Assembly: GCA_028695495.1 (NCBI GenBank)
Contig: JAQVIX010000001.1
Span: forward strand, 1-64,000
Length of the DNA stretch: 64,000 bases
Direction of reading: 5' to 3'
Source of the DNA: Candidatus Cloacimonadota bacterium
Lineage (GTDB): Bacteria; Cloacimonadota; Cloacimonadia; Cloacimonadales; Cloacimonadaceae
Below are positions 4,121-62,375 of the stretch, one piece after another. Position 1 is the stretch's first letter; every line of letters starts with the position of its first letter. The position numbers were made by a program, and so were the translations under genes. The notes under the pieces were generated by a model. It had not been told where the DNA came from, searched no databases, and saw only the letters and a program-made list of their open reading frames with translations.

Positions 4121-4330
4121 TTATAGATAGCATACATACAAAACACCTTCGTACTCAATAAATACGTATAAACCATAAGGGTCTTCGTAAACGATTTTGA
4201 TGATAGGGTTGTTCAAAGACCCTGAATAAACGGGTAGGGTTTGGTGATTGATGGCGCTATAGTCTATCACCGCGCACATCATGTTTAGGCTGATTACAGC
4301 CACGCTGAGGACAAGCAATAATCTTTTCAT
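4121..4330 (-). CDS. Small secreted protein of unknown function (69 aa)
   Basis: A 69-residue ORF with an SD (AAAGGAG) about 9 nt before the ATG and a good signal peptide (first ~20 residues, ending near MCA). The mature part is only about 49 residues, rich in aromatic and beta-branched residues, with no motif I recognise. It sits between a sigma-like regulator and the C10 peptidase, all on the minus strand. Streptopain-type peptidases are often encoded beside a small inhibitor, so an inhibitor role is possible, but this is inferred from position only. The strong SD and signal peptide argue that it is a real gene. Confidence 0.6.
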   Translation of the reverse strand: MKRLLLVLSVAVISLNMMCAVIDYSAINHQTLPVYSGSLNNPIIKIVYEDPYGLYVFIEYEGVLYVCYL

Positions 4331-4404
4331 TTTGACACTCCTTTAAATATGCTTATACATATAAGTGTCAAAAACAGCAAAAATGATATGCTGGAATTGA
4401 AGAT

Positions 4405-5496
4405 TTATGTTTTTAGATGAGAAATAATTTGTTCATAAGTCCACATAGACTTGCCCATCTCCTTGGGTATCCGTATGTTAGCTGGTATTGGGTGAGGAAC
4501 AATTTTTTTGTGTTGTTTAGAGTCTTCTACCCTAATGTGATTTCTTTCATCCAAAACGATGTAGAATGTAGCCGCAAGCGGTGTTTTTTCTTGTGTTAAA
4601 TGAAATAGGTGGAGTCTGAATCTGCGATTGCCTGCCATCGTGATTCCCCAGTCGTCGATCCTTTCTATGCCCTGCATCGCTTGCTGGAGCTGGGGATCGA
4701 TTTTGCGCGCGGCGCAATCATCTTCACTGCGACCTATTTTCAGAAGAGTTCTAATAAATCTCTGAATTGCGTTATATTGGTTAAAATTGAGAATATCCCG
4801 GCTATCTTCCCATCCCATGGCAAGCAATATTTTGGCTTTCAGGTTTCGGATAGCTCTCCCTTTTCGTTTTTGAGCCACTTTCTCGCTTACTTTTAGCCAT
4901 TGGGCATATTCTTTGATGCTTTGGAAAGAGATTGCCCGCTCATACTCTTTGTATTCCGAACTCTCGATAATTCCCTTTTTCAGGCTTGGATCTAGTCCAT
5001 CAAGCTCAATACTATCATCCGGGGAGATGAAGCTTTGCATTACAGAGCTTTCTCGCATCAACATATCCGAAAGCTCTATCTGTTTTGCCTTGTCTTCGTA
5101 ATACTTACACAATAAGTTATGTATTACTTGTCTTAACCAGTAGTAAACATCATTGATTTTTCGATTGGAAGAGAGCAACTGGCGGATTGCCTCCTGGGAA
5201 GTATCTTCAGATAAAGTATGCTCATGGGTTTTGGTATAACAGTATTGGTAAGATACTTTCTGATAGTAGTTAAACACATCTTCTACCGCTTTGGGGAAAG
5301 AAGCTTTGATTAAGTCTGCAAATTGCCCTTTAGGTTCATAGAAAGCTGGGCTTTTCATAAGCTTAACCAAAATTGTGTTTGCGATGTCATCTGAAAGATT
5401 TAGATAACAGAAGCGCTGGGAAGTAAGCTCTCGGATATATCCGATAATGTCATCATATCTTTTTTTGTTCATTGAGATGAAATCGATTTCTTTCAT
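4405..5496 (-). CDS. Putative sigma-factor-like / HTH regulatory protein
   Basis: The start is taken at the ATG at 5496 (MKEIDF), which has an SD (AAGGAT) at proper distance; the in-frame upstream Met at 5535 lacks one. The product has 363 residues. Residues about 120-155 (YYWLRQVIHNLLCKYYED) look like sigma-70 region 2, and residues about 200-240 (EYAQWLKVSEKVAQKRKGRA) look like a region 4 helix-turn-helix. The C-terminal 120 residues have no match I know and end in a beta-rich stretch. There is no signal peptide or membrane segment, so it should be cytoplasmic. Downstream on the same strand lie a tiny secreted protein and the C10 peptidase, so it may control them. The family assignment is tentative. 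Confidence 0.5.
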   Translation of the reverse strand: MKEIDFISMNKKRYDDIIGYIRELTSQRFCYLNLSDDIANTILVKLMKSPAFYEPKGQFADLIKASFPKAVEDVFNYYQKVSYQYCYTKTHEHTLSEDTSQEAIRQLLSSNRKINDVYYWLRQVIHNLLCKYYEDKAKQIELSDMLMRESSVMQSFISPDDSIELDGLDPSLKKGIIESSEYKEYERAISFQSIKEYAQWLKVSEKVAQKRKGRAIRNLKAKILLAMGWEDSRDILNFNQYNAIQRFIRTLLKIGRSEDDCAARKIDPQLQQAMQGIERIDDWGITMAGNRRFRLHLFHLTQEKTPLAATFYIVLDERNHIRVEDSKQHKKIVPHPIPANIRIPKEMGKSMWTYEQIISHLKT

Positions 5497-5795
5497 GTTT
5501 ATTATCCTTATCCAATCTGAATTACAAAATGACAATATTCAGGCATTAAAGGAACTGTCAACATCAAAATATTCTTACAGGAATTTCAAGATTTATATCT
5601 GAAGCCAATTTTCATTTGGTGGCTATTGATGCGTTCTGCTTTAGTAGGCGACCTTCGATTGTCTTGTACTGATATAGGTTGACTCTTTTTTGCCATGAAT
5701 TCGGCATGATTTTAAGGTTAAATATTGAGGGTTTTCTTAGGCATTGCCAAAATGATGTGCTGGACTCATGCTATTTGAGATCAATAACCGAGCTT

Positions 5796-5881
5796 AGCCC
5801 GTCAGGGCTAACAGTTTAGCTAGCCCAGGGTGTTCTTGCCCAAAAATGAGCTTGCGAGTTTTTGGCAAGATAAACCCTGGG
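5796..5881 (+). repeat. REP-like unit: small GTCA-loop hairpin plus CCCAGGG hairpin
   Basis: A short hairpin AGCCC-GTCA-GGGCT (5796-5809) is followed by a larger one whose arms start CCCAGGGT (5824) and end ACCCTGGG (5881), with inner arms CTTGCC..AAAAA and TTTTTGGCAAG. A close relative occurs twice, in opposite orientations, at 59156-59461. The layout resembles REP elements mobilised by RAYT transposases, but no transposase is visible in the window. Confidence 0.7.
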
Positions 5882-5916
5882 TAATTGATGCGTTTTGATG
5901 GTTGTCTTTTTATCCG

Positions 5917-5984
5917 CCAGCCCTCCCCTTAAATTTACTCCCCAAAAACACGTTTTTGGGGAGTAAATTTAAGGGGAGGGCTGG
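5917..5984. repeat. Perfect palindrome, 33-bp arms with 2-nt spacer
   Basis: The left arm at 5917-5949 (starting CCAGCCCTCCCC) is the exact reverse complement of 5952-5984 (ending GGGGAGGGCTGG), leaving only AC in the centre. Such long near-spacerless palindromes are unstable, so the element is probably recent or maintained. A second palindrome with similar ends and the same upstream hairpin lies at 59271-59343. Confidence 0.9.
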
Positions 5985-6080
5985 GGTTTTATTTATCATA
6001 TTGCTACATAACGCGATTGCTATCTAAAATGCCACCCCTAAGGGGTTCCGCCCGACAGCCAAGCATGATATTCTCTGTTC

Positions 6081-6178
6081 AAGCTTGCCCGTTTGCCTCC
6101 CTCGCAATGCCCTCGCCTCTACCCAGAATTTGCCGGTCGAGGTGAGGGCATTGTGAGGGCGGCTAACGGGGAGGCTTG
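6081..6178. repeat. Imperfect palindromic repeat, family with copies at 30303 and 62643
   Basis: The left part reads CCCTCGCAATGCCCTCGCCT and its inverted counterpart GAGGTGAGGGCATTGTGAGGG is about 12 nt away. The outer arms (AAGC..GTTTGCC and GGCTAAC..GCTT) extend the pairing. Two related copies in this window keep the core CAATGCC / GGCATTG pairing. Confidence 0.7.
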
Positions 6179-6555
6179 CTTCGCTGCGCTCAGCTAATGA
6201 ATGATGAATAATGACGGCTGCGCAAGCGCAGGTTGATCATAGCTGCGCTCGTGGCGGGCTTATCGATTTATGGGTTACCTGTAAGTGAAAACAAAGCACC
6301 GCTAATTTGCGCGAATACGCCACAAATAAAAGTCTTAACCCTAACAAGTTACTCTTGAAACGAGCGCAGCGCCTAACACCTAAAACCTATCACCTAACAC
6401 CTGCTAAAGGATTTACAGCCGCCATCATTCATTATTCATCATTCATTGTTCATTTGCGAGCTTGCGAGCATTGCCGCCGCTTGAAGTCAATGTCGCTTGT
6501 GAAAGCCCTCCCGCACATCCCTATCCCCTAAATCAATGCCTTTACAAAATCTTAC

Positions 6556-6583
6556 TTGACAAAATTGTTGCATGCCATATATG
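6556..6583 (+). promoter_or_regulatory. Probable sigma-70-type promoter for the 6799 gene
   Basis: TTGACA at 6556-6561 and TATATG at 6578-6583 are 16 bp apart. Transcription from here would give a leader of about 210 nt before the ATG at 6799. Confidence 0.5.
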
Positions 6584-6798
6584 TGGATACCTTAAGGTAA
6601 GTATCTATAAGTGCATAGAGTGAGCGTAAATAAAGTGAGTATCCCTCATGGCTAAAGCTTTGCATATTTGTGGCAAAAAGCTTTCCAGGCTGTGTATATG
6701 GGGATAGAAAGATTCGATATTTTCGGGTAGGGTTCCCAAAAAACCTTACAAAGATAGAATAAATAACAAAACAAAGAAAACCTAAAAGGAGAAAAGTA

Positions 6799-9700
6799 AT
6801 GAGGAAAAATCTGCTTTTCCTGCTACTGCTGATCTTGGCTATCAGCCTCTGCAGCAACTTATTTGCTCAAGTGGATATTACCATTGGGGACGGTACCCAG
6901 GTAAATACCACTACTGGCGCACCTGCCCCTTATGGTACTTGGTACAAATCCTTTCGCCAGCAATTCATCGTACTTGCCAGCGAATTGAATAACCAGGGTG
7001 GAGGTCCCGGTAATATTACATCATTGGCTTTCAATGTAGAAACCCTGAATAATATTACCCCCATGAACAACTTCAGAATCAGGCTGAAACACACCACCCA
7101 AACCGCTTTAACTTCTACTTTTGAAGCGGGCGATTATTCGGTGGTATTTCAACAAAACGATTTCACCCCCACCGTGGGTTGGAACCTGCACACCTTTAGT
7201 ATCCCCTTCAATTGGAACGGTGCCTCAAACTTACTCGTAGAAGTGGTAACGGACTTGATTACCGGTAACTATGCCCAAAACGCTTCTGTTTACTATACAA
7301 GCACCACTTTTGCCAGTTCCCTGCGTTACGAGAGCGATACTGTCAATGCTGGTAACAGCTCCACAGGCACCACTGCAAATATGCGCTCCAATATGAAATT
7401 TACCATGCAGCAGCTTGATATGCAGGATATGACTGCCATAAGCATTAGCGGTAATACTACTCCCAGCGTTGGCACTCTTACCAATTACATTGTGCGTGTA
7501 AAAAATCTAAGCCCCGGCGCTCAAAGCAACTATACCGTAAAACTGATGGCAGCTCCTAATACCGAGCTGCTGAGCTTGCCCGGTACTGCTCTAAACGCCA
7601 TGGCAGAAGCCGATTTTACTTTTGGCTGGACACCTGAGACTATTGGTCCCATGCAGCTTTTTGGTCGCGTGGAAATGACTGGTGACGAAAACCCCGCCAA
7701 TAATAATACGCCCAATCTAAACTTGGAAGTACAACCTGCCGATATCCTTAGGGTACAAATAGGTACCGATACTCAGGTAAATGGCGAAACCGGTAGTCCG
7801 GCACCTTATGGCACCTGGTACAAAGCGTTCCGCGAACAGTATCTATATAGAGCCAGCGAAATCTATGCTGCGGGCGGCGCCCCCGGTCTTATTACTTCTT
7901 TGGCTTTCAACGTACAAAATGTGGGTCAATGCACCGCCATGACAAACTTCAAGATCCGCCTGAAGCATACTGCACAAGAGGTTTTGACAGCCAGCTTTGA
8001 AGGTGGTGAATATGAAACCGTTTTCCAGGCAGGCACTTTTATGCCGGTAAATGGCTGGAATATGCACACTCTTTCCAGCCCCTTCTTCTGGAATGGTGGG
8101 GATAACCTGATTATCGAAGTTGTTACCGACTTGTGCGCTGGCGCTTATGCCCGCAACGCTTTGGTATATTTCAGCAGCCCCGGCTTCAATAGCTCTGTGC
8201 GCTTCCAAAGCGATAGCGCCAATGGCGATACCGGCTCCACCGGCACAGTAAGTGCAAACCGCAGTAATGTGCGGCTTTTCCTTGTCGTGGAAGATATGGG
8301 TAGCCTTAGCGGCACCGTTACCACCGGTGGTGCACCCTTAGCAGGTGCTACTGTAAGCGTAGATAACACCGCATTTACCTTCACCACCGCAGCGGATGGA
8401 ACTTATACCCTGCCTTACGTGAACGCAGGTGCGCAAACCGTTACCGCTTCCAAGCATGGCTATGCTTCCGTAAGCCATGACGTTACTATCGTAGAAGGAG
8501 AAAACACTGTCCAAAACTTTGCGCTTAACCTTCTGCCGCAAGTAACCGTTAGCGGACGCATTGTAGGTAGCGACGCCCCCACCTTGGGTATCGCCGATGC
8601 TGTCATTACCTTGAGTGGCTACGAACCCTACACTGCTACCACAAATGCTCAGGGTCAATTCACCATTGAAGACGTATTTGCCAGCCAAACCTATCAGTAT
8701 GTTGTTGCGGCTCTTGGCTATCAAAGCGCCACTGGTCAAGCTGTGGTAGGTACTACAAACCTGAATATGGGTGATATTACCGTAGCCGAAATGGCTTTTC
8801 CGCCGTACTCTGTAATTGCAGATGAAAGCACAGATTTCACTGAAGTATTGCTAAGCTGGCAAGCTCCGGATCCGAGCGCTGTGGATATCACAGAAGGCTT
8901 TGAAGGCGATTTCCCGCCCGAAGGCTGGAGCCAGATTATCAATAACAACAACGAAGGTGGCGTAGGTGTAATGGCTACCTGGTGCAAAACCGGCACCATT
9001 GGTCTTACACCGGAAGTACCTCCTCATGAAGGCGATTATCAAGCCGCTATCTGGTGGGATTACTCGCACCAGGATGAATGGCTCATCACTCCGGAATTTG
9101 TGTGCCCCGGCAATGCTGCTCTCAGCTTCTGGAGCTATGTATTCCTTGGCAGCCCCAATGAAGACCACTACTATATCAAAGCCTCTACCGATGGTGGAAA
9201 TACCTGGCAGATGTTGTGGGATGCTACAGAGCAAACCGGTGAATGGAACTATTACGATACCCCCATCGTCGTGCCATTGGATGCCTTGTCTGGTCAGCAA
9301 ATAAAGCTTGCTTTCCATGCTTTAGACCCGCCCTCAAACGATGGTCTCTGGCACGTATGGTTTGTGGATGATGTAACCATCGGCAACGCACAGCGCACTA
9401 TCAAATTCCCCGCGGGAATGCTGAGCAGTGCCCATTCTGCCAAGCCGCAACAAAGCATCATCAATAGCGTAAGCAGCAAGAAGCTTCCTGCCAGCCGTGC
9501 GGTATATGAAAACCCCAGCCTGGTAGAAGGTTCTTTGCATATTGTTCAACCTCAAAATACCGAACGCAGCCTTTTGGGCTATAAGGTATGGCGTTTCCTG
9601 AGCAACCAGCAGGATAACGAAGCAAACTGGACTCTACTTACAAGCAATAATATCACCACCACCAGCTATACAGACGCTGTCTGGGGTCCGCTGCCTTCCG

Positions 9701-31202: not shown

Positions 31203-31734
31203 TATTAAAATACGGTATTACAAAATACTAACTTGCCTTTTTTAAACTAACATTTATAATGTTAGAATTGTGAAATCGGGTTAGTATCAGGGATATTCTG
31301 CATCATAGATTAGATTCTAATCGGATGGAGGTTGTCCACCATTATGATGTAATTAAAAACCACGGATTCTGCAATGGTTTATGCACCTGCCTGCCGGATC
31401 TGAAGCTGTCCCGAAATGGGCAAATAACACAAAATTAAGAAATGTCCGCCCCTACATTCTCGTTTTACTTGATATCGTGCTTGGTTTTGGCATTTCGGAA
31501 TAGCCTCATCTGAAATGCTGTTCCTGACGGAACAATAAGGGCAGGCGTGTTTTGGCATCTTGGGATAAGAAAAAACACAATAGTGGTGCACTTTAAACTT
31601 CCGTTTCCCCTACAGTATCATGAAAAAAGGGGGAAATAACCATTTTGCCATGTTTCTTATTGACAAAAAATGACTACTATTTTGATTTGGAATGACGGTA
31701 AGAAGATGATACAGACAATCAAGGAGATGAACCT
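31203..31734. other. Gene-free region with partial MITE copy and GTCA-loop hairpin
   Basis: It contains the shortened MITE-like copy D (31402-31508) and, 12 bp after it, the hairpin GTTCC-TGAC-GGAAC (31520-31533), which matches the REP-like hairpins at 5796 and 59156 in inverse orientation. TTGACA at 31660 precedes the methyltransferase gene, but no well-spaced -10 was found. Confidence 0.6.
31402..31508 (-). mobile_element. MITE-like element, internally deleted copy D
   Basis: The ends GAAGCTGTCCCGAAAT and ATTTCGGAATAGCCTC are near-perfect terminal inverted repeats. On the minus strand it reads GCCAAAACCAAGCACGATAT, GAGAATGTAGGGGC, then directly the other end, so the central ~100 bp present in copies A-C are missing. 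Confidence 0.75.
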
Positions 31735-56672: not shown

Positions 56673-58586
56673 CTAAATCCTCATGTCCCAAATCATTTCC
56701 TTCTCTTTGGGTGATAGTTTGAAATAGTCCATCAAGTATTCATCTATTGCGTCGGTATCTTCATCACCTTTTAATACTGCCTTTATAATTTCCTTGATCT
56801 TAGTTTCGCTTCCCAAAAAGTCGATTGGGATAGGTAATACCTCAAGATTGGATTTGAGCACCTTGTGTGTGTTAAATAGCGCTCTAAAAAGATGGTTATA
56901 AGTCTTGGAATTGAAAATAGAGGATATGGTGCACATATCCATACCGGCTATATTGGGAATGCAGATATTGGCACTATTCAGAGTAAGCACCCCCTGATTG
57001 TCATAAGCAAATACCAGTTTATCGGATATAAACCTATAGATCAGCTTTTCCTTAGCCCGATACTTCCATTCTGGCGCTACCTGTTGAAACGAAAGCGGTT
57101 TAAACTCAATGTATTGTGCCGCACCCCCCAAACGCATGGGCATTATGTCTTTACCTCTATAGATCGGTTCAAAACCAGCTTTCATTGTGTTTGATAGGTA
57201 TTTCTGGTTGTTTCCGGTAACGATACCCAGTGCCCAATCTGCATTGTCTTTTAGCGTAATATATTCTTGTGCAAAAAACTTGTCTATCAGTTCATTAGCT
57301 TCATTATTGCAAATACTCATAAAGGAGTAATTTGTAAGCTCAAATATTTTGTTCAGCTTAGCATAGCTCGCATTCTCTGTATCTTTTCCTGTAGCTGTGC
57401 GAGTTAAATCCATCCGGTAAACATTTGTAAATACATCTGTAAAAATAGCCCCCAATTCATTGATAGATGCTATTTGATAGTTGCCTAAGATATATTTCCT
57501 TATGTCTTTATGCACTTTGATGTTGATAATGGATTCGGGTAAAACCAATGACAGCCTGCCACCCTCTTTCAGAAAATCCCGGCATTTTACCACAAAATAG
57601 GAAAAGGACTCGCCAGATTGCACTTCCGGATATAGTTTGGATAGTTCCTGCCTATTTAATGCCGCTCCCCAGGGAGGATTGGTGGCAATCAAATCAAAGG
57701 CGTTTTTCATCCAGATATATTCATCTAAAAATGAATCTAAATCGATATCAGTTAATGTATTGCAGTGATATATGTTGGGCTCAAAATCTGCGTCCGGAAA
57801 CGCCAGCAACAGATTGATGGAAGCAATGTAGGCAGATATTTGATCTATGTCTATGCCATATAAATCGTTGTAATTACAGCCCTTTTGCCGTGCGCAACAC
57901 ACCAAAAACTGACCAGTTCCGCAGCAAGGATCAAGGAATCTCATGCCAGGCTGATATTGGCTTGAAATCATAGTTTGAACCACGTTTATAGGCGTAAAAT
58001 AAGAGCCTTTTTGCGATTTATTTCCTTCCTGCAACATAGCCTGATATATCGCTCCCAAAAAATCCTGTTCCTTGGGAACACTCTGTCCGGCGAAGGCTTG
58101 GCTTATTGCAGCTATTGTAGCGTATTGTTTTTCAGATTGGCACGCATCTTCCCATTTTAGTATTAGCTTTTTTATGCCGCTTCTGCGAAAAGACATCCTA
58201 ATCTGATTCTTTGCGTCATTATCACTTAGGGCAATTTCATTACTATAAATCAGATACGCAATTGCCGTGATAAACATCGCCCCCGATACCGGGAGTTCTG
58301 CATCATCACAAATATCTATAATCTGTTGCACCAATCCAACTAACTCTTTGGGAATGTATTCATTTGGCGTTATCGTTTTTTTGCTTGCAGATTTATTTGC
58401 CCTTTGATTTAACCTGTCTATTTCGCCACTTTTTATCTTGGATTGAAGAGCATAAATCTCCAGTATCGGAATCTTTCCCGAATTGTGAGGATGCGCCCCC
58501 AAAACACCTGTTTTAATCCAGTTTCTGATGGTGGCGCTGGATACCCCCATGAACTTAGCGGCAAATCTTACATCAAAATATACCAT
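56673..58586 (-). CDS. N6-adenine DNA methyltransferase with N-terminal HTH domain (type II RM, system 3)
   Basis: The 637-residue protein opens with a MerR/excisionase-like helix-turn-helix (VRFAAKFMGVSSATIRNWIK, residues ~6-25). The methyltransferase core follows with motif I DPCCGTGQFLVCCA near residue 217, a YGIDIDQISAYIA segment, and motif IV NPPWGAAL near 300. Motif I before NPPW marks an N6-adenine enzyme of the gamma type. The C-terminal ~200 residues should contain the target-recognition domain. It is paired with the nuclease-like gene just downstream. The HTH may regulate its own operon. Confidence 0.88.
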   Translation of the reverse strand: MVYFDVRFAAKFMGVSSATIRNWIKTGVLGAHPHNSGKIPILEIYALQSKIKSGEIDRLNQRANKSASKKTITPNEYIPKELVGLVQQIIDICDDAELPVSGAMFITAIAYLIYSNEIALSDNDAKNQIRMSFRRSGIKKLILKWEDACQSEKQYATIAAISQAFAGQSVPKEQDFLGAIYQAMLQEGNKSQKGSYFTPINVVQTMISSQYQPGMRFLDPCCGTGQFLVCCARQKGCNYNDLYGIDIDQISAYIASINLLLAFPDADFEPNIYHCNTLTDIDLDSFLDEYIWMKNAFDLIATNPPWGAALNRQELSKLYPEVQSGESFSYFVVKCRDFLKEGGRLSLVLPESIINIKVHKDIRKYILGNYQIASINELGAIFTDVFTNVYRMDLTRTATGKDTENASYAKLNKIFELTNYSFMSICNNEANELIDKFFAQEYITLKDNADWALGIVTGNNQKYLSNTMKAGFEPIYRGKDIMPMRLGGAAQYIEFKPLSFQQVAPEWKYRAKEKLIYRFISDKLVFAYDNQGVLTLNSANICIPNIAGMDMCTISSIFNSKTYNHLFRALFNTHKVLKSNLEVLPIPIDFLGSETKIKEIIKAVLKGDEDTDAIDEYLMDYFKLSPKEKEMIWDMRI

Positions 58587-58755
58587 GTTTTTTTATGTCC
58601 TTATGCTGGTAGCTTGCTTTGATAAATCACAAATCCTGTTTTAGCGTCTATCTGGAAGCGCTTAGATTCTCTTTTGGGCATCAATCCAAGCTCTCAAGCA
58701 TAATCCCATTATTTTTGAACTTCCATTTCTCGTCAATCTCTATTTTTATTATGAA

Positions 58756-58830
58756 AAGCAAGGGGCAGAGAGCGAAGGGCATAGGGCTAAGCTCCACGCC
58801 CTAAGCTCTTCGCTCTTCGCCCTTAGCCCT
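58756..58830. repeat. Imperfect palindromic low-complexity repeat
   Basis: Blocks such as AGAGCGAAGGGC, AGGGCTAAGCTC, CCCTAAGCTCTTCGCTCTTC and CGCCCTTAGCCCT can pair with one another. No copy elsewhere in the window is clear. Confidence 0.5.
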
Positions 58831-58970
58831 TTTTCCCACGAATTACGAAACATAATTGTAGCAGCAGACCAATGTGTCTGTCCTCAGCTTATTGACTGCC
58901 AAATCGGAGTTTGATACCCCAGATCGACAGCACACTTTATCAAAAGCGGTCTCGCATGCCTACCAGCTTG

Positions 58971-59060
58971 AGGCTGTCCAAGAATACGAAATGTGGTCAA
59001 TAACAGGGATTTTCGCACCTGAAATGTAGGGGCTCATTGTTATGAGCCCGCTTCAAAAAT
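58971..59060 (-). mobile_element. MITE-like element, partial copy F
   Basis: GAGGCTGTCCAAGAATACGA matches the inverse of the family's right end (CGTATTTCTGGACAGCCTC). It is followed by TGGTCAATAACAGGGATTTT, also found in copy B, and by GAAATGTAGGGGCTC. Confidence 0.6.
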
Positions 59061-59155
59061 CAAGATAATATATGGCTCAAGTTCAAACATAGTGGGTAGC
59101 CATCGAATATATTGGATGCGATTATTTCCCGAAATGATGACATCCTATCTGTCTT

Positions 59156-59461
59156 GTCCCGTCAGGGACAGTGGTTTAGATAGCCCAGGGTGTGCTTGCC
59201 AAAAACGAGCTTGCGAGTTTAAGGCAAGATCACCCTGGGTAAATGGAAGCGGTTAAATAAGGAAATAAAACCCCAGCCCCCCTTGTAATTAAGGGCACAA
59301 AACCCGAGGTGGTTTGTGCCCTTAATTACAAGGGGGGCTGGGGGATAAAAAGGATTTCATCAAAACATGCCTTTCACCCAGGGTGATCGTGTCCCAATTT
59401 ACGCAAGCTCATTTTTGGACAAGAACACCCTGGGCTATCTGAAATAGCGTTCCTACGGAAC
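59156..59461. repeat. Composite REP-like element: two inverted hairpin units around a 31-bp-arm palindrome
   Basis: From left to right: hairpin GTCCC-GTCA-GGGAC (59156-59169); hairpin with arms CCCAGGGTG..CTTGCC / GGCAAG..CACCCTGGG (59184-59239); palindrome with 31-bp arms (59271-59301 with 59313-59343); inverse hairpin CCCAGGGTG / CACCCTGGG (59377-59434); small hairpin GTTCC-TAC-GGAAC (59449-59461). The right unit is the reverse complement of the left one with changes. The left unit also occurs at 5796-5881. Confidence 0.8.
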
Positions 59462-59640
59462 TCTGCTCGTTGTGTTGGTTTCCAGATACCGGTAAATACA
59501 TTATATCTATTTTATTGTTGGCTCAGCCAGCGGAATAAAGGCTCAAATCAAAGAAGTTATTTACGATGGATAAGCACAAAAGTTTACCACTTCAAATGCT
59601 TACAATACTGCCACACAATCAATTAGCAATTATGTGGGGA

Positions 59641-59943
59641 CTACATTTTCCCTTTATTATGTTCAGCCTTAAGCTGTCTTTGCAAATAGCGCAATTGCTC
59701 TCTATATCCAGTTTCCAGATCCAACCATAAATCACTGGAAACACTCGTAATTTGCTCCAAGTTTGTTGCAATATCTTTGTTTATCGGCTGTTTTCCTTTG
59801 ATTATCTCATCCAGGCTTTCAATTGTTATGTCCAATTTCAAGGCTAAATCCGAGTGTGTTATTCCCATGTTTTCCATCATTTCCAGAATGGATTCTCCGG
59901 GTGGAACTGCGAAATTCGGTCTTGCTTTGTAATACTTTGCCAT
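59641..59943 (-). CDS. HigA-like XRE-family HTH protein at the end of RM operon 4
   Basis: The ATG at 59943 (MAKYYK) fits the GAGG SD better than the Met at 59958. The 100-residue protein matches the HigA antitoxin family: PPGESILEMMENMGITHSDL, an HTH with LALKLDITIESLDEIIKGKQ, and DLWLDLETGYREQL at the C-terminus. No HigB-type toxin gene is beside it; instead it follows the TdeIII-like nuclease by about 25 bp on the same strand. It may regulate the RM operon or be a leftover antitoxin. Confidence 0.75.
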   Translation of the reverse strand: MAKYYKARPNFAVPPGESILEMMENMGITHSDLALKLDITIESLDEIIKGKQPINKDIATNLEQITSVSSDLWLDLETGYREQLRYLQRQLKAEHNKGKM

Positions 59944-59967
59944 ATTATATGTCCTCATCCTTATAGA

Positions 59968-60738
59968 CTAATCTCTCCGCTCTGCAAACCTCGTAAAATA
60001 TTCATCTATCACCGGGCGCAGTTCAATACCCACATTTTCAAAGGCGTCCAAGAGCATTTCATAAGCGCCTTCTCCGCCTAAAAAATCCCAAAACTCTTTT
60101 CCAACTTTTAATTCATACTCCAAATCCAACATACCGCGAATTGTCCATCTGTTATATGGTTTGGGCTCGTAGGGATTATACGGAATGGCAACCAGGGTGT
60201 GGATATCAGCATCAGGTTCATCTGCCAAAGCCGCCGCTGCCCATTCCAGGAGACTGCGTTTGAACTCTTTGAAGCCCCCGATATTGGGCTTGGCAGTTTT
60301 GATATCTATCAGATAAATGCTGCCTTTGGTACTCACCAGCTTCAAATCTATCTGTGTGAGTTTTACATCCCGCATTTGCCCCTCAGTGCACACCGCCCGG
60401 ATAGCCTTTAATTCCGCCATTTTATCGGGCGCTCTTTCTACCGTTGAGAGTTCATCCATAATGTTTTGGATCACTTCTTGTGCCGTAGAGGAGATTCTAT
60501 TGCCGGCACTTTGGTGCAATAATGCTTCTCTAAAACGCTGCGCTGCCAATGCCTGCGCCACCGGCTCAAAGATGCTGGTGCCAAAGGTAGTATTTAACGA
60601 TTGGATAAAGGAATACAGCGCCAATCTGTCTTTTCCCAAGAGCCTGCTATGAAAAGGCATATTGGAGGTTTCCGGCTTATAGCTTGCAAACTTCGCTTCC
60701 AGGCATCTTTTTAATATTTCTTCTATTTGTTTTTGCAT
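59968..60738 (-). CDS. TdeIII-like type II restriction endonuclease (system 4)
   Basis: The ATG at 60738 has the SD GAGGAAAG; a GTG eight codons earlier (60762) overlaps the methyltransferase gene and is possible. The 256-residue protein resembles the TdeIII family: FHSRLLGKDRLALYSFIQSL and NTTFGTSIFEPVAQALA. The nuclease core is IDLKLV..IYLIDIKTAKPN, a D..DxK variant of PD-(D/E)xK. Known TdeIII-type enzymes cut GGNCC; the same target here is only an expectation. The upstream gene encodes its methyltransferase. Confidence 0.8.
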   Translation of the reverse strand: MQKQIEEILKRCLEAKFASYKPETSNMPFHSRLLGKDRLALYSFIQSLNTTFGTSIFEPVAQALAAQRFREALLHQSAGNRISSTAQEVIQNIMDELSTVERAPDKMAELKAIRAVCTEGQMRDVKLTQIDLKLVSTKGSIYLIDIKTAKPNIGGFKEFKRSLLEWAAAALADEPDADIHTLVAIPYNPYEPKPYNRWTIRGMLDLEYELKVGKEFWDFLGGEGAYEMLLDAFENVGIELRPVIDEYFTRFAERRD

Positions 60739-60758
60739 TCTTCTTTCCTCAGCAGCAC

Positions 60759-62375
60759 TCACACTGTCTTTTCTTTAAGATGAAATATAATCTCCGCATA
60801 CGCGCCTTTATCTTTCTCCGTGCGGTTTAGTACGGGGCGTTTATATTGGTTTACGATCTGCATTCCCGCTTTTTCAGCAATCTTGGGATACATATTGTAT
60901 TTATCATTGGCTACCAAAAATACATCGTAATCTTCAGCTAAATAGGCTTTACAATTGATCAGAACTTCCGATATCCCCTGAATATAGCTTTCTTTGGCTT
61001 CTTTGCCCTGTCCTTTAAAAAGCGGTCCTATCTCCAATTCATCATTGCGCGGAAAGCCAAAGAGATCGTAAGCGTAGGCGTGTTGCTCGTGATAATCGAT
61101 CAACCCCACATAAGGCGGGGAACTAAAAATCCCGCTGATCTTTTGATTGCGCAGGATTTCAGCCAGGTGCGGATTTGCCTTTTGCAGCTCTATATCTATC
61201 TGGATAGTCCTACTATCGCCCACCAGGCAATACTGCTCTGTATCACTCCTTAAAACCTCAAATTCCGCCAGTCTGGCGAGGGTATCCTTGCTATAGGTAT
61301 TCCACCATTTCAGGATGGAGAAAATGGGTTTGCAGATTTTGCCGTGTTTAGAACAATAATAGCTGCTGTAAATCGGTTCAATGAGGGTGCCCAAATCTGC
61401 ATGGGTAGTGGCGCGGCAACTGCGGATGGTGCGGCTCAGGATTACGCTGATGATGTTCTTAATCTCCGGTTGATCAATCTTTTGAATCTCATCATACACC
61501 ACCTGGATTTCCTCTCGCACATGTTGCGAATACCATTTATCCAAAAATGAACTCTTCTCATCTTGTTGCAGATGAATATCATACACCGCTACCAAGTGTT
61601 CAAATTGCTTGAGGAATTCCGCTTCTTTTTCCGCTCCGTAAGTGGCTTCATCGATCAAGCCGCGGCGCAAACGATATTTGTAATCCGGCACGGGAAAGTG
61701 TTTTTTATTGTAGTCTTGCAAAAGCTTTTGCAAATGCTGTTCAAATTCCAATACATGCGAATCCCAAAGAAAACCGTTTAGCACGGCTGATATGCGTTTG
61801 ATCTCGTTTTGCAAGACCTTGAGGTCATACTTTTTGATCTTACAATTACTGATTAGAGCGTTAAATGCGGATACATCGATGCCGATGGCGTGTAAACCCA
61901 ATTCATTGCCTTGCACGAGGGTGGTACCGCTGCCGGAAAAGGGGTCTAATACAATGTCCCCAAGCTTAAAGAAGGCTTCAGTTTTGAACTTATCGATATG
62001 CGAATCCAGAAAATACTCCACCAATTGCGGGATAAACTTCCCCTTATATGGGTGCAGGCGATGCACGTGTTTGGTTGTTTCTGCCTCTTTGTATTGGTCA
62101 AAAGAAAGGCTCCAGTTCAGGTCGCTGCCTAGCTCCTTTTTCCATGCCTTTTCTTTGGTATTGTATTGATTTCGATAGTATTTAAGTAATTCGCTTTTGG
62201 AGATAAGCACAGTGCCATTATTGCCAAATTTCTTTACGCGACCGTATTGCACCAAATAGCTGATATTGGCGTTGGTGACGTTCTTTTCCAAAAGCTCAGA
62301 GGCAATCTGCCGCGCTTCGGATATATTGATCAAATCCTGCGGTTCAGAAAGCCGGGCGGGTTCGTTATATACCAT
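60759..62375 (-). CDS. DNA amino-methyltransferase with N-terminal HTH-like segment (type II RM, system 4)
   Basis: The 538-residue protein has an N-terminal excisionase/MerR-like segment (residues ~17-70: SEARQIASELL..VLISKSELLKYY). Motif I is DPFSGSGTTLVQGNE near residue 141, with GLHAIGIDVSAFNAL after it. Motif IV, SSPPYVGLIDYHEQ, is near residue 414. The order I then IV with a long spacer is the same as in systems 1 and 2. Substrate base is adenine-N6 or cytosine-N4. It should protect the target of the TdeIII-like enzyme encoded downstream. Confidence 0.88.
   Translation of the reverse strand: MVYNEPARLSEPQDLINISEARQIASELLEKNVTNANISYLVQYGRVKKFGNNGTVLISKSELLKYYRNQYNTKEKAWKKELGSDLNWSLSFDQYKEAETTKHVHRLHPYKGKFIPQLVEYFLDSHIDKFKTEAFFKLGDIVLDPFSGSGTTLVQGNELGLHAIGIDVSAFNALISNCKIKKYDLKVLQNEIKRISAVLNGFLWDSHVLEFEQHLQKLLQDYNKKHFPVPDYKYRLRRGLIDEATYGAEKEAEFLKQFEHLVAVYDIHLQQDEKSSFLDKWYSQHVREEIQVVYDEIQKIDQPEIKNIISVILSRTIRSCRATTHADLGTLIEPIYSSYYCSKHGKICKPIFSILKWWNTYSKDTLARLAEFEVLRSDTEQYCLVGDSRTIQIDIELQKANPHLAEILRNQKISGIFSSPPYVGLIDYHEQHAYAYDLFGFPRNDELEIGPLFKGQGKEAKESYIQGISEVLINCKAYLAEDYDVFLVANDKYNMYPKIAEKAGMQIVNQYKRPVLNRTEKDKGAYAEIIFHLKEKTV

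Follow-up and report, generated by a model that had tools for sequence, protein, structure and literature searches.

The 64-kb stretch of DNA analysed here (the window; contig C108 of a Cloacimonadota genome of 2.72 Mb in 155 contigs, 95.3% complete) contains small hairpins that keep their pairing while their stem bases differ. This raises the question of what kind of element these hairpins belong to and which enzyme they depend on. As argued below, they are very probably REPs of the transposase subclass TnpA_Y1 1.2. Their kind (REP/REPtron) is an expected one; their owner is unexpected and their tag is reversed.

Hairpin units in the window and their copies in the host genome

A search with the covariance model R1 (head and 3' tag, 30 positions, built from 26 distinct copies) found five units of 29-31 nt in the window; R1 was built from host units, so that those units match it by construction. 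Four of the five form two inverted pairs, 5794-6048 and 59154-59463, which also hold longer hairpins and palindromes:

5794-5823, plus strand: candidate REP unit 1, with hairpin AGCCC-GTCA-GGGCT at 5796-5809, 3 nt and tag AGTTTAGCTAG (R1 42.9 bits, E 2.5e-8, by construction as a row of the alignment A3)
5824-5881, plus strand: second hairpin CCCAGGG...CCCTGGG with inner stem CTTGCC/GGCAAG, directly 3' of the unit 1 tag
5917-5984, no strand: central palindrome of the first inverted pair, with 33-bp perfect arms
6020-6048, minus strand: candidate REP unit 2, inverted partner of unit 1, with hairpin ACCCC-TTA-GGGGT and tag ATTTTAGATAG (R1 34.7 bits, E 2.4e-6)
31505-31535, minus strand: candidate REP unit 3, solo, with hairpin GTTCC-GTCA-GGAAC at 31520-31533 (R1 32.6 bits, E 7.9e-6)
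59154-59183, plus strand: candidate REP unit 4, with hairpin GTCCC-GTCA-GGGAC at 59156-59169, 3 nt and tag GGTTTAGATAG (R1 47.2 bits, E 2.4e-9, by construction as a row of A3)
59184-59239, plus strand: second hairpin CCCAGGG...CCCTGGG, 3' of the unit 4 tag
59271-59343, no strand: central palindrome of the second pair, with 31-bp perfect arms and a sequence unlike that at 5917-5984
59377-59434, minus strand: second hairpin CCCAGGG...CCCTGGG of the right half, adjoining unit 5
59435-59463, minus strand: candidate REP unit 5, inverted partner of unit 4, with hairpin GTTCC-GTA-GGAAC and tag ATTTCAGATAG (R1 28.5 bits, E 7.7e-5; its sequence is itself a row of model R2)

The hairpins of units 1, 3 and 4 had been noted in the preliminary description, together with the CCCAGGG...CCCTGGG hairpin that follows units 1 and 4, and all of them are found where it placed them. 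The half of the first pair that contains unit 2 is devoid of a CCCAGGG hairpin, and the tag of unit 3 is broken up by a short inverted-repeat insertion. This insertion of 106 bp (31402-31507) has inverted ends GAAGCTGTCCCGAAATG and GAGGCTATTCCGAAATG, is flanked on each side by ATCT and lies inside the tag of the solo unit. The window contains three perfect 5-bp stems around GTCA/TGAC, versus a mean of 0.42 and a maximum of 4 in first-order Markov simulations, in which at least three were reached once in 100 runs. A chance origin of the window hairpins was rejected on these simulations and on the copy number in the genome.

Other repeats and genes surround these elements. The repeated stretch around the first element (5660-6086) reaches past the heads, and its copies at C75 (96% identical) and C83 (90%) have in common some 135 nt that precede the head. 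Positions 6047-6405 belong to another interspersed repeat family, with an identity of at most 94% to its copies on other contigs of the same genome. The region around the second element (56673-62375) carries restriction-modification genes, namely those of an Eco57I/TaqI-like methylase, a TdeIII-type endonuclease and an N6/N4 methylase.

The search of the whole genome with a covariance model, which the preliminary description had proposed, gave at least 108 matches to R1 at E<=0.01 and 128 at E<=1, numbers that are lower bounds since 150 of 1439 candidates were scored. The same holds for the other genome searches, in which at most 150 candidates were scored per genome (at most 96 in the survey of 78 genomes described below). 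R1 also matches in 11 of 30 relatives, host included, where arrays such as GAGTCCCATCGGGACGGCATTTCAGATAG are found. The unit occurs solo, in tandem arrays and as inward-pointing inverted pairs. Among the 108 host units, neighbours within 600 bp form 27 inward pairs, one outward pair and two tandem pairs. In the host stretches examined, 33 inverted pairs were found, 22 of which (counted by eye) have at their centre a palindrome whose arms are perfect over 26-36 bp. The arm sequence varies from copy to copy, and both arms agree within each copy. The minimal elements (C44, C73, C154) measure about 80 nt from tag to tag and consist of head, tag, CCCAGGG hairpin, tag and head, one head being replaced by a GGACAGCCTC end in C73 and C154. 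In several other copies, the head is replaced by elements with GAGGCTGTCC..GGACAGCCTC ends.

We infer that the units have moved. When the region 4300-7400 of the window was compared with 12 genomes of the genus, host included, no relative was seen, among the matches listed, to match across the element, the relatives covering stretches away from it. One alternative is that a classical DDE transposase moved the elements as MITE-like insertions, in which case the inverted pair would be a terminal inverted repeat and the hairpins would be incidental. The spacings of the host pairs are indeed mostly discrete (near 222-227, 275-287 and 480-488 bp), and the 106-bp sequence at 31402-31507 shows that a true inverted-repeat insertion with a 4-bp ATCT repeat exists in this genome. 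However, the unit is also found solo and in tandem arrays and it tracks a Y1 gene, as detailed below. Furthermore, no direct repeat of at least 3 nt was found outside the heads in 23 paired elements, an argument of little weight as the mismatched-pair control also gave zero, the boundaries are uncertain and the outer feet are conserved. Such an origin is thus very unlikely.

Unit anatomy and covariation

The unit consists of a 5-bp hairpin with a loop of 3 or 4 nt, followed by 3 nt and by an 11-nt tag that ends with NTAG, the linker between hairpin and NTAG measuring 9-10 nt. The commonest tags in the host are ATTTTAGATAG, GGTTTAGATAG and GGTTTAGCTAG. The tail after the hairpin is 14 nt long in the host family; at subclass 1.2 loci, it is 13 nt long in 253 of 312 motif matches and ends with GTAG in 162. 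The stem compensation described previously was recovered, whereas the constancy of the GTCA loop was not: GTCA is the commonest loop, but the host heads also show GTTA, GTA, GGA, AGA, TTTA, ATCA, AGC and others. This listing of loops and tags covers 72 heads, kept only when 5/5 pairs were formed (standard or G-T).

Covariation was examined in 26 distinct units with a four-base loop, selected from the genome copies, one chimera and one 4/5 stem being kept. In this set, 97.7% of the stem cells are paired, a proportion that falls to 81.2% in shuffles and to 20.8-54.6% in slid versions; 29 stem cells are changed on both sides, versus 9.1 in shuffles. The covariation score is 0.560 versus 0.215 for shuffled alignments, and none of 500 shuffles reached it. 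On the other hand, the number of pairs with a change on both sides (3 of 5) does not separate the units from the shuffles, 253 of 500 reaching the same value, and the number of further pair types (5) is below the shuffled mean (6.1). A scan for the tag, in which pairing was not required and whose patterns were written after the units of the motif scan had been viewed, gave 60 sites. Their stems are paired at 5/5 positions in 47 cases, at 4/5 in 6 and at 2/5 in 7; they include 10 different stems, the perfect ones coming from 20 loci. The covariation that had been proposed from three hairpins therefore persists when more copies are considered, both in the 26-unit comparison and in the tag scan. 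The alignment A5, which includes four host-type rows, one of them unit 5 of the window, shows 100% pairing by construction, its rows having been chosen for perfect stems. Two stem types are combined in the host head at C83:3686-3715, a chimera in which two pairs are broken, as expected from recombination within the unit. As REP sub-families with complementary stem changes are already known, covariation alone is an ordinary finding.

In the host, the tag is commonly followed directly by the longer CCCAGGG...CCCTGGG hairpin. This arrangement was seen at 73 tag sites, which come from stretches selected for holding this hairpin, and in the window elements, too, the second hairpin is immediately preceded by NTAG. 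In the same way, the order head, short linker, TAG and longer hairpin was found by eye beside eight subclass 1.2 genes (L090, L097, L098, L102, L189, L215, L219, L241), with second stems such as CCCAGGG, CCCAGC, CCCGGGG, CCCGGC and others. The CCCAGGG hairpin of the window thus belongs to the layout of the family, in some lineages. Under a fixed rule, a second hairpin was counted after the tag in 38 of the 74 units of the host (none in shuffles), in 15 of the 245 units of L105-L184 (versus 4 in shuffles) and in a single one of the 30 units of L185-L214 (none in shuffles), so that under this rule the two-hairpin form is not general. The consensus fold of 27 second hairpins gave only 5 pairs, none changed on both sides; it does not establish their covariation because the MAFFT alignment shifts the arms. 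Folded singly, 68 distinct cores give hairpins with different inner stems, which is suggestive only. At another locus (L208, genome G112), in another family of the order, a head, TAG, second hairpin, ATAAATAAAA stretch and long central palindrome lie beside a subclass 1.2 gene, a composite that closely resembles the window element.

Perfect compensated stems would also be expected if the hairpins acted as RNA, as terminators, attenuators or a structured RNA family, the covariation then resulting from RNA function. The predicted RNA folds of the 68 second-hairpin cores are stable (median -29.7 kcal/mol, a value with no shuffled baseline). However, Rfam gave no match in the window at the gathering score, and the two long ORFs on either side of the pair 5794-6048 are directed away from it, a placement assessed for the window units against a mechanical ORF list. 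Besides, both orientations of the unit occur together at each inverted pair, and the fixed-length linker and NTAG are conserved outside the stem. RNA function as the source of these features is also very unlikely, although REP units may have secondary roles as RNA.

Association with transposase genes of subclass 1.2

Two Y1_Tnp genes were detected in the host, on contigs C80 and C68. The C68 gene, the only copy of the subclass detected there, has lost its N-terminal part: it aligns from residue 29 in the homologue search or at profile positions 47-149 only in the profile search, and upstream its frame runs into another repeat. A homologue with about 51% identity was found in a relative (G017), where an intact HUH/Y1 gene of 154 aa lies between inverted unit arrays present on both sides. 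In 11 homologues of 142-154 aa, hand-chosen from 22 matches, residues H55, H57, Y115, Q119, H122 and H123 are invariant. These proteins carry the HUH motif and the Y---Q--HH signature with no added domain, Pfam giving only Y1_Tnp in the two proteins scanned. NCBIfam identifies the G017 protein as an IS200/IS605 family transposase, the REP_Tyr_transpos model reaching only 19.6 bits. According to sequence comparison, the nearest solved structures are 2xm3, of the ISDra2 type, and 2a6m, that of IS608 TnpA. By its signature, rather than by published profiles or a tree, the gene is assigned to TnpA_Y1 subclass 1.2. Genomes have 0-7 matches to this subclass.

The other host gene (C80, 190 aa; L032 1370-2290) is flanked on both sides by GTGGCATCTTGCCAC hairpin repeats, which are unlike the window unit; with them it apparently forms another REPtron with its own hairpin family. 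That this Y1_Tnp, which resides in the same genome and is similar to REP_Tyr_transpos (54.5 bits, the cut-off being 80), owns the window repeats is hardly credible, since its own arrays consist of that different hairpin and since subclass 1.2 genes carry the window-type unit in many genomes.

This link was first quantified at 80 loci from named genomes, taken from the homologue alignment and representing the best 80 of at least 580 confirmed. They belong mostly to Bacteroidota and also to Desulfonema, a Planctomycetaceae MAG, Cloacimonadota, Ignavibacteria, Anaerolineales and others. The unit density is 5.17 per kb within 400 nt of the gene versus 0.18 per kb beyond 1.2 kb, the former being slightly raised because matches from loci with short flanks were counted while their length was not. 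At least one inward unit was found in 65 of the 71 loci with full flanks, and 37 have them on both sides. Outward units are also common (119 versus 193 inward; present on one side or both in 52 of the 71 loci, and on both in 10), partly because the motif pattern is loose. A test that uses no motif, based on the best inverted alignment between the 500 nt upstream and downstream of the gene, gave a score of at least 36 in 46 of 79 loci, versus 7 of 158 cross-locus and 2 of 136 same-locus controls.

A second set of loci was also examined. A strict motif scan gave few matches there, with inward units in 6 of 30 Cloacimonadota loci, 3 of 11 loci from Desulfonema relatives and 1 of 19 others, which suggests that the unit varies more than the models capture. 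The motif-free test, run afterwards on the same loci, was passed by 25 of 38 loci, namely 16 of the 27 in Cloacimonadota and 9 of the 11 in Desulfonema relatives, whereas none of the 17 Y1 genes that fall outside the subclass and none of the 135 cross-pairs passed it. This test covered the loci with flanks of at least 150 nt, which excluded 3 of the 30 in Cloacimonadota and 2 of the 19 others. Without seven loci viewed previously (L185, L186, L187, L189, L213, L192, which is L129, and L216, which is L106), the counts become 12 of 21 and 8 of 10 (20 of 31).

The same association is seen between genomes. Among 78 genomes of the phylum, at least 5 units (E<=0.01) were found in 18 of 42 with the gene versus 2 of 36 without it (Fisher p 1.2e-4), and any unit in 28 of 42 versus 11 of 36; the gene was called present at a best score of at least 110 bits, which dropped G026 and G091 from the 44 genomes listed. 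The link is not one-to-one, 14 of the 42 gene-bearing genomes having no unit and one gene-less genome having 30. Among 40 relatives of Desulfonema magnum, itself included, units were found in 4 of 6 genomes with the gene (at least 96 bits, 6 of 18 listed) and 4 of 34 without it (p 0.0095); the four gene-less genomes have 9 to 109 units and two gene-bearing ones have none. Of 20 gene-bearing genomes selected, 19 were searched (L111 being left out), and all 19 gave matches at E<=0.3, from 3 to 152 each. In D. magnum, many units form arrays with a period of about 52 bp, several of them around two gene copies at 3075-3079 kb. Long arrays with this period at 3025441-3026616 and 3028250-3028959 of NZ_CP061800 (G030:C1) look like CRISPRs at first sight.

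The preliminary description had proposed a RAYT-type or related non-autonomous element and had suggested looking for a Y1 gene with flanking copies. Inverted copies do border Y1 genes, in relatives and in many other genomes. Together with the number of copies and the covariation, this supports that proposal, the side of the tag differing from the canonical one.

Proposed mechanism and comparison with known systems

The enzyme would bind the folded hairpin on single-stranded DNA, recognizing its shape more than its stem sequence; the compensated stem variation fits recognition of shape and of the conserved bases next to the loop. By analogy with the right end of IS608, it could then cut at or near NTAG, and such cutting would be how copies spread. 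Cleavage at the tag is a somewhat doubtful step. Inverted pairs would carry the transposase gene or, as in the window, a palindromic non-coding filler reminiscent of BIMEs. As a guess, the central palindromes, perfect yet variable, might be kept so by arm-to-arm copying in a fold-back intermediate. As the only gene copy of the subclass detected in the host is devoid of its N-terminus, the repeats there are probably remnants, or are served by a copy absent from the 95%-complete assembly; given this damage, present activity is doubtful.

These steps can be joined into one tentative reading, whose chances we put just short of even. IS200-like enzymes with the Y---Q--HH signature, described neither as insertion sequences nor as REP-linked, would run their own widespread REP system. 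Its layout would be a hairpin, a linker of 9-10 nt, GTAG as cut or target site and an optional second hairpin starting from GTAG. The stem could be any paired sequence, so that one enzyme lineage can hold many stem families; inverted pairs would be the carriers, with central palindromes kept perfect by arm-to-arm copying during single-strand processing. This HUH transposase subclass, common in Bacteroidota and also found in Cloacimonadota, Desulfonema and other groups, had no DNA partner in the published listing. The one proposed here is abundant, oligonucleotide-sized and directly testable by biochemistry; with it, the hairpin repeats of those phyla could be named and assigned to an enzyme.

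Subclass 1.2 is described as having the Y---Q--HH signature, about 148 aa and a Bacteroidetes-rich distribution, and the table of Quentin et al. (2018) lists REP "no" for it (PMC6006769). The genes studied here resemble it by their length (about 150 aa), their DHVH, WQ and Y---Q--HH motifs and their Bacteroidetes-rich distribution. Unlike what was reported, inverted hairpin units frequently flank them: the reported absence of REP-like sequences near subclass 1.2 genes is contradicted. The search rule given in that paper calls for GTAG/GTGG 0-2 nt 5' of the hairpin and for a basal stem of 7-20 nt (PMC6006769), and window-type units fail it with their 5-bp stem and their tag 3' of the hairpin. 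Among the top-listed open-licence PMC papers, no description of REPs of subclass 1.2 and none of the exact head words were found, although such REPs may have been described elsewhere. RayT transposase genes of Chryseobacterium are named in a 2024 paper, whose passages on them describe no repeats and in which REP and palindrom do not occur as whole words (PMC11194056). Terms such as Bacteroidetes and IS200 are absent from a REPIN modelling paper (PMC8049555).

The units share many traits with the GTAG REPs and REPtrons of TnpA_REP/RAYT (Quentin subclasses 2.2 and 2.5; Di Nocera families). Like these, they are short palindromes with a GTAG-like tag and many copies (at least 108 in the host), they form sub-families with complementary stem changes, inverted dimers and arrays, and they flank a Y1 gene as in a REPtron. 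Such sub-families, inverted dimers and REPtrons have been reported (PMC3733652). However, their tag is located 9-10 nt 3' of the first hairpin rather than 0-2 nt 5' of it, and the gene belongs to the IS200-like class 1. With the tag on the opposite side, the unit is a variant and not a textbook REP.

Considering their closest solved structures (2xm3-type and IS608 TnpA), the enzymes also resemble those of IS200/IS605 elements such as IS608 and ISDra2; unlike the ends of these elements, the flanking units are mutual inverted repeats with many gene-free copies. At the right end of IS608, cleavage takes place at a tetranucleotide situated some 10 nt 3' of the hairpin; with the cleavage site so placed, the order hairpin, linker and GTAG of the unit is that of this end. 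The IS608 right end uses the guide GAAT and the cleavage site TCAA (PMC5934647), and the IS608 guides are 5' of each palindrome (PMC8266576). As for TnpA_REP of E. coli, it acts on one REP strand only, with GTAG before the hairpin, and cuts at CT (PMC8266576). Compared with both E. coli TnpA_REP and IS608, the unit described here offers a second geometry for the choice of guide and cleavage site.
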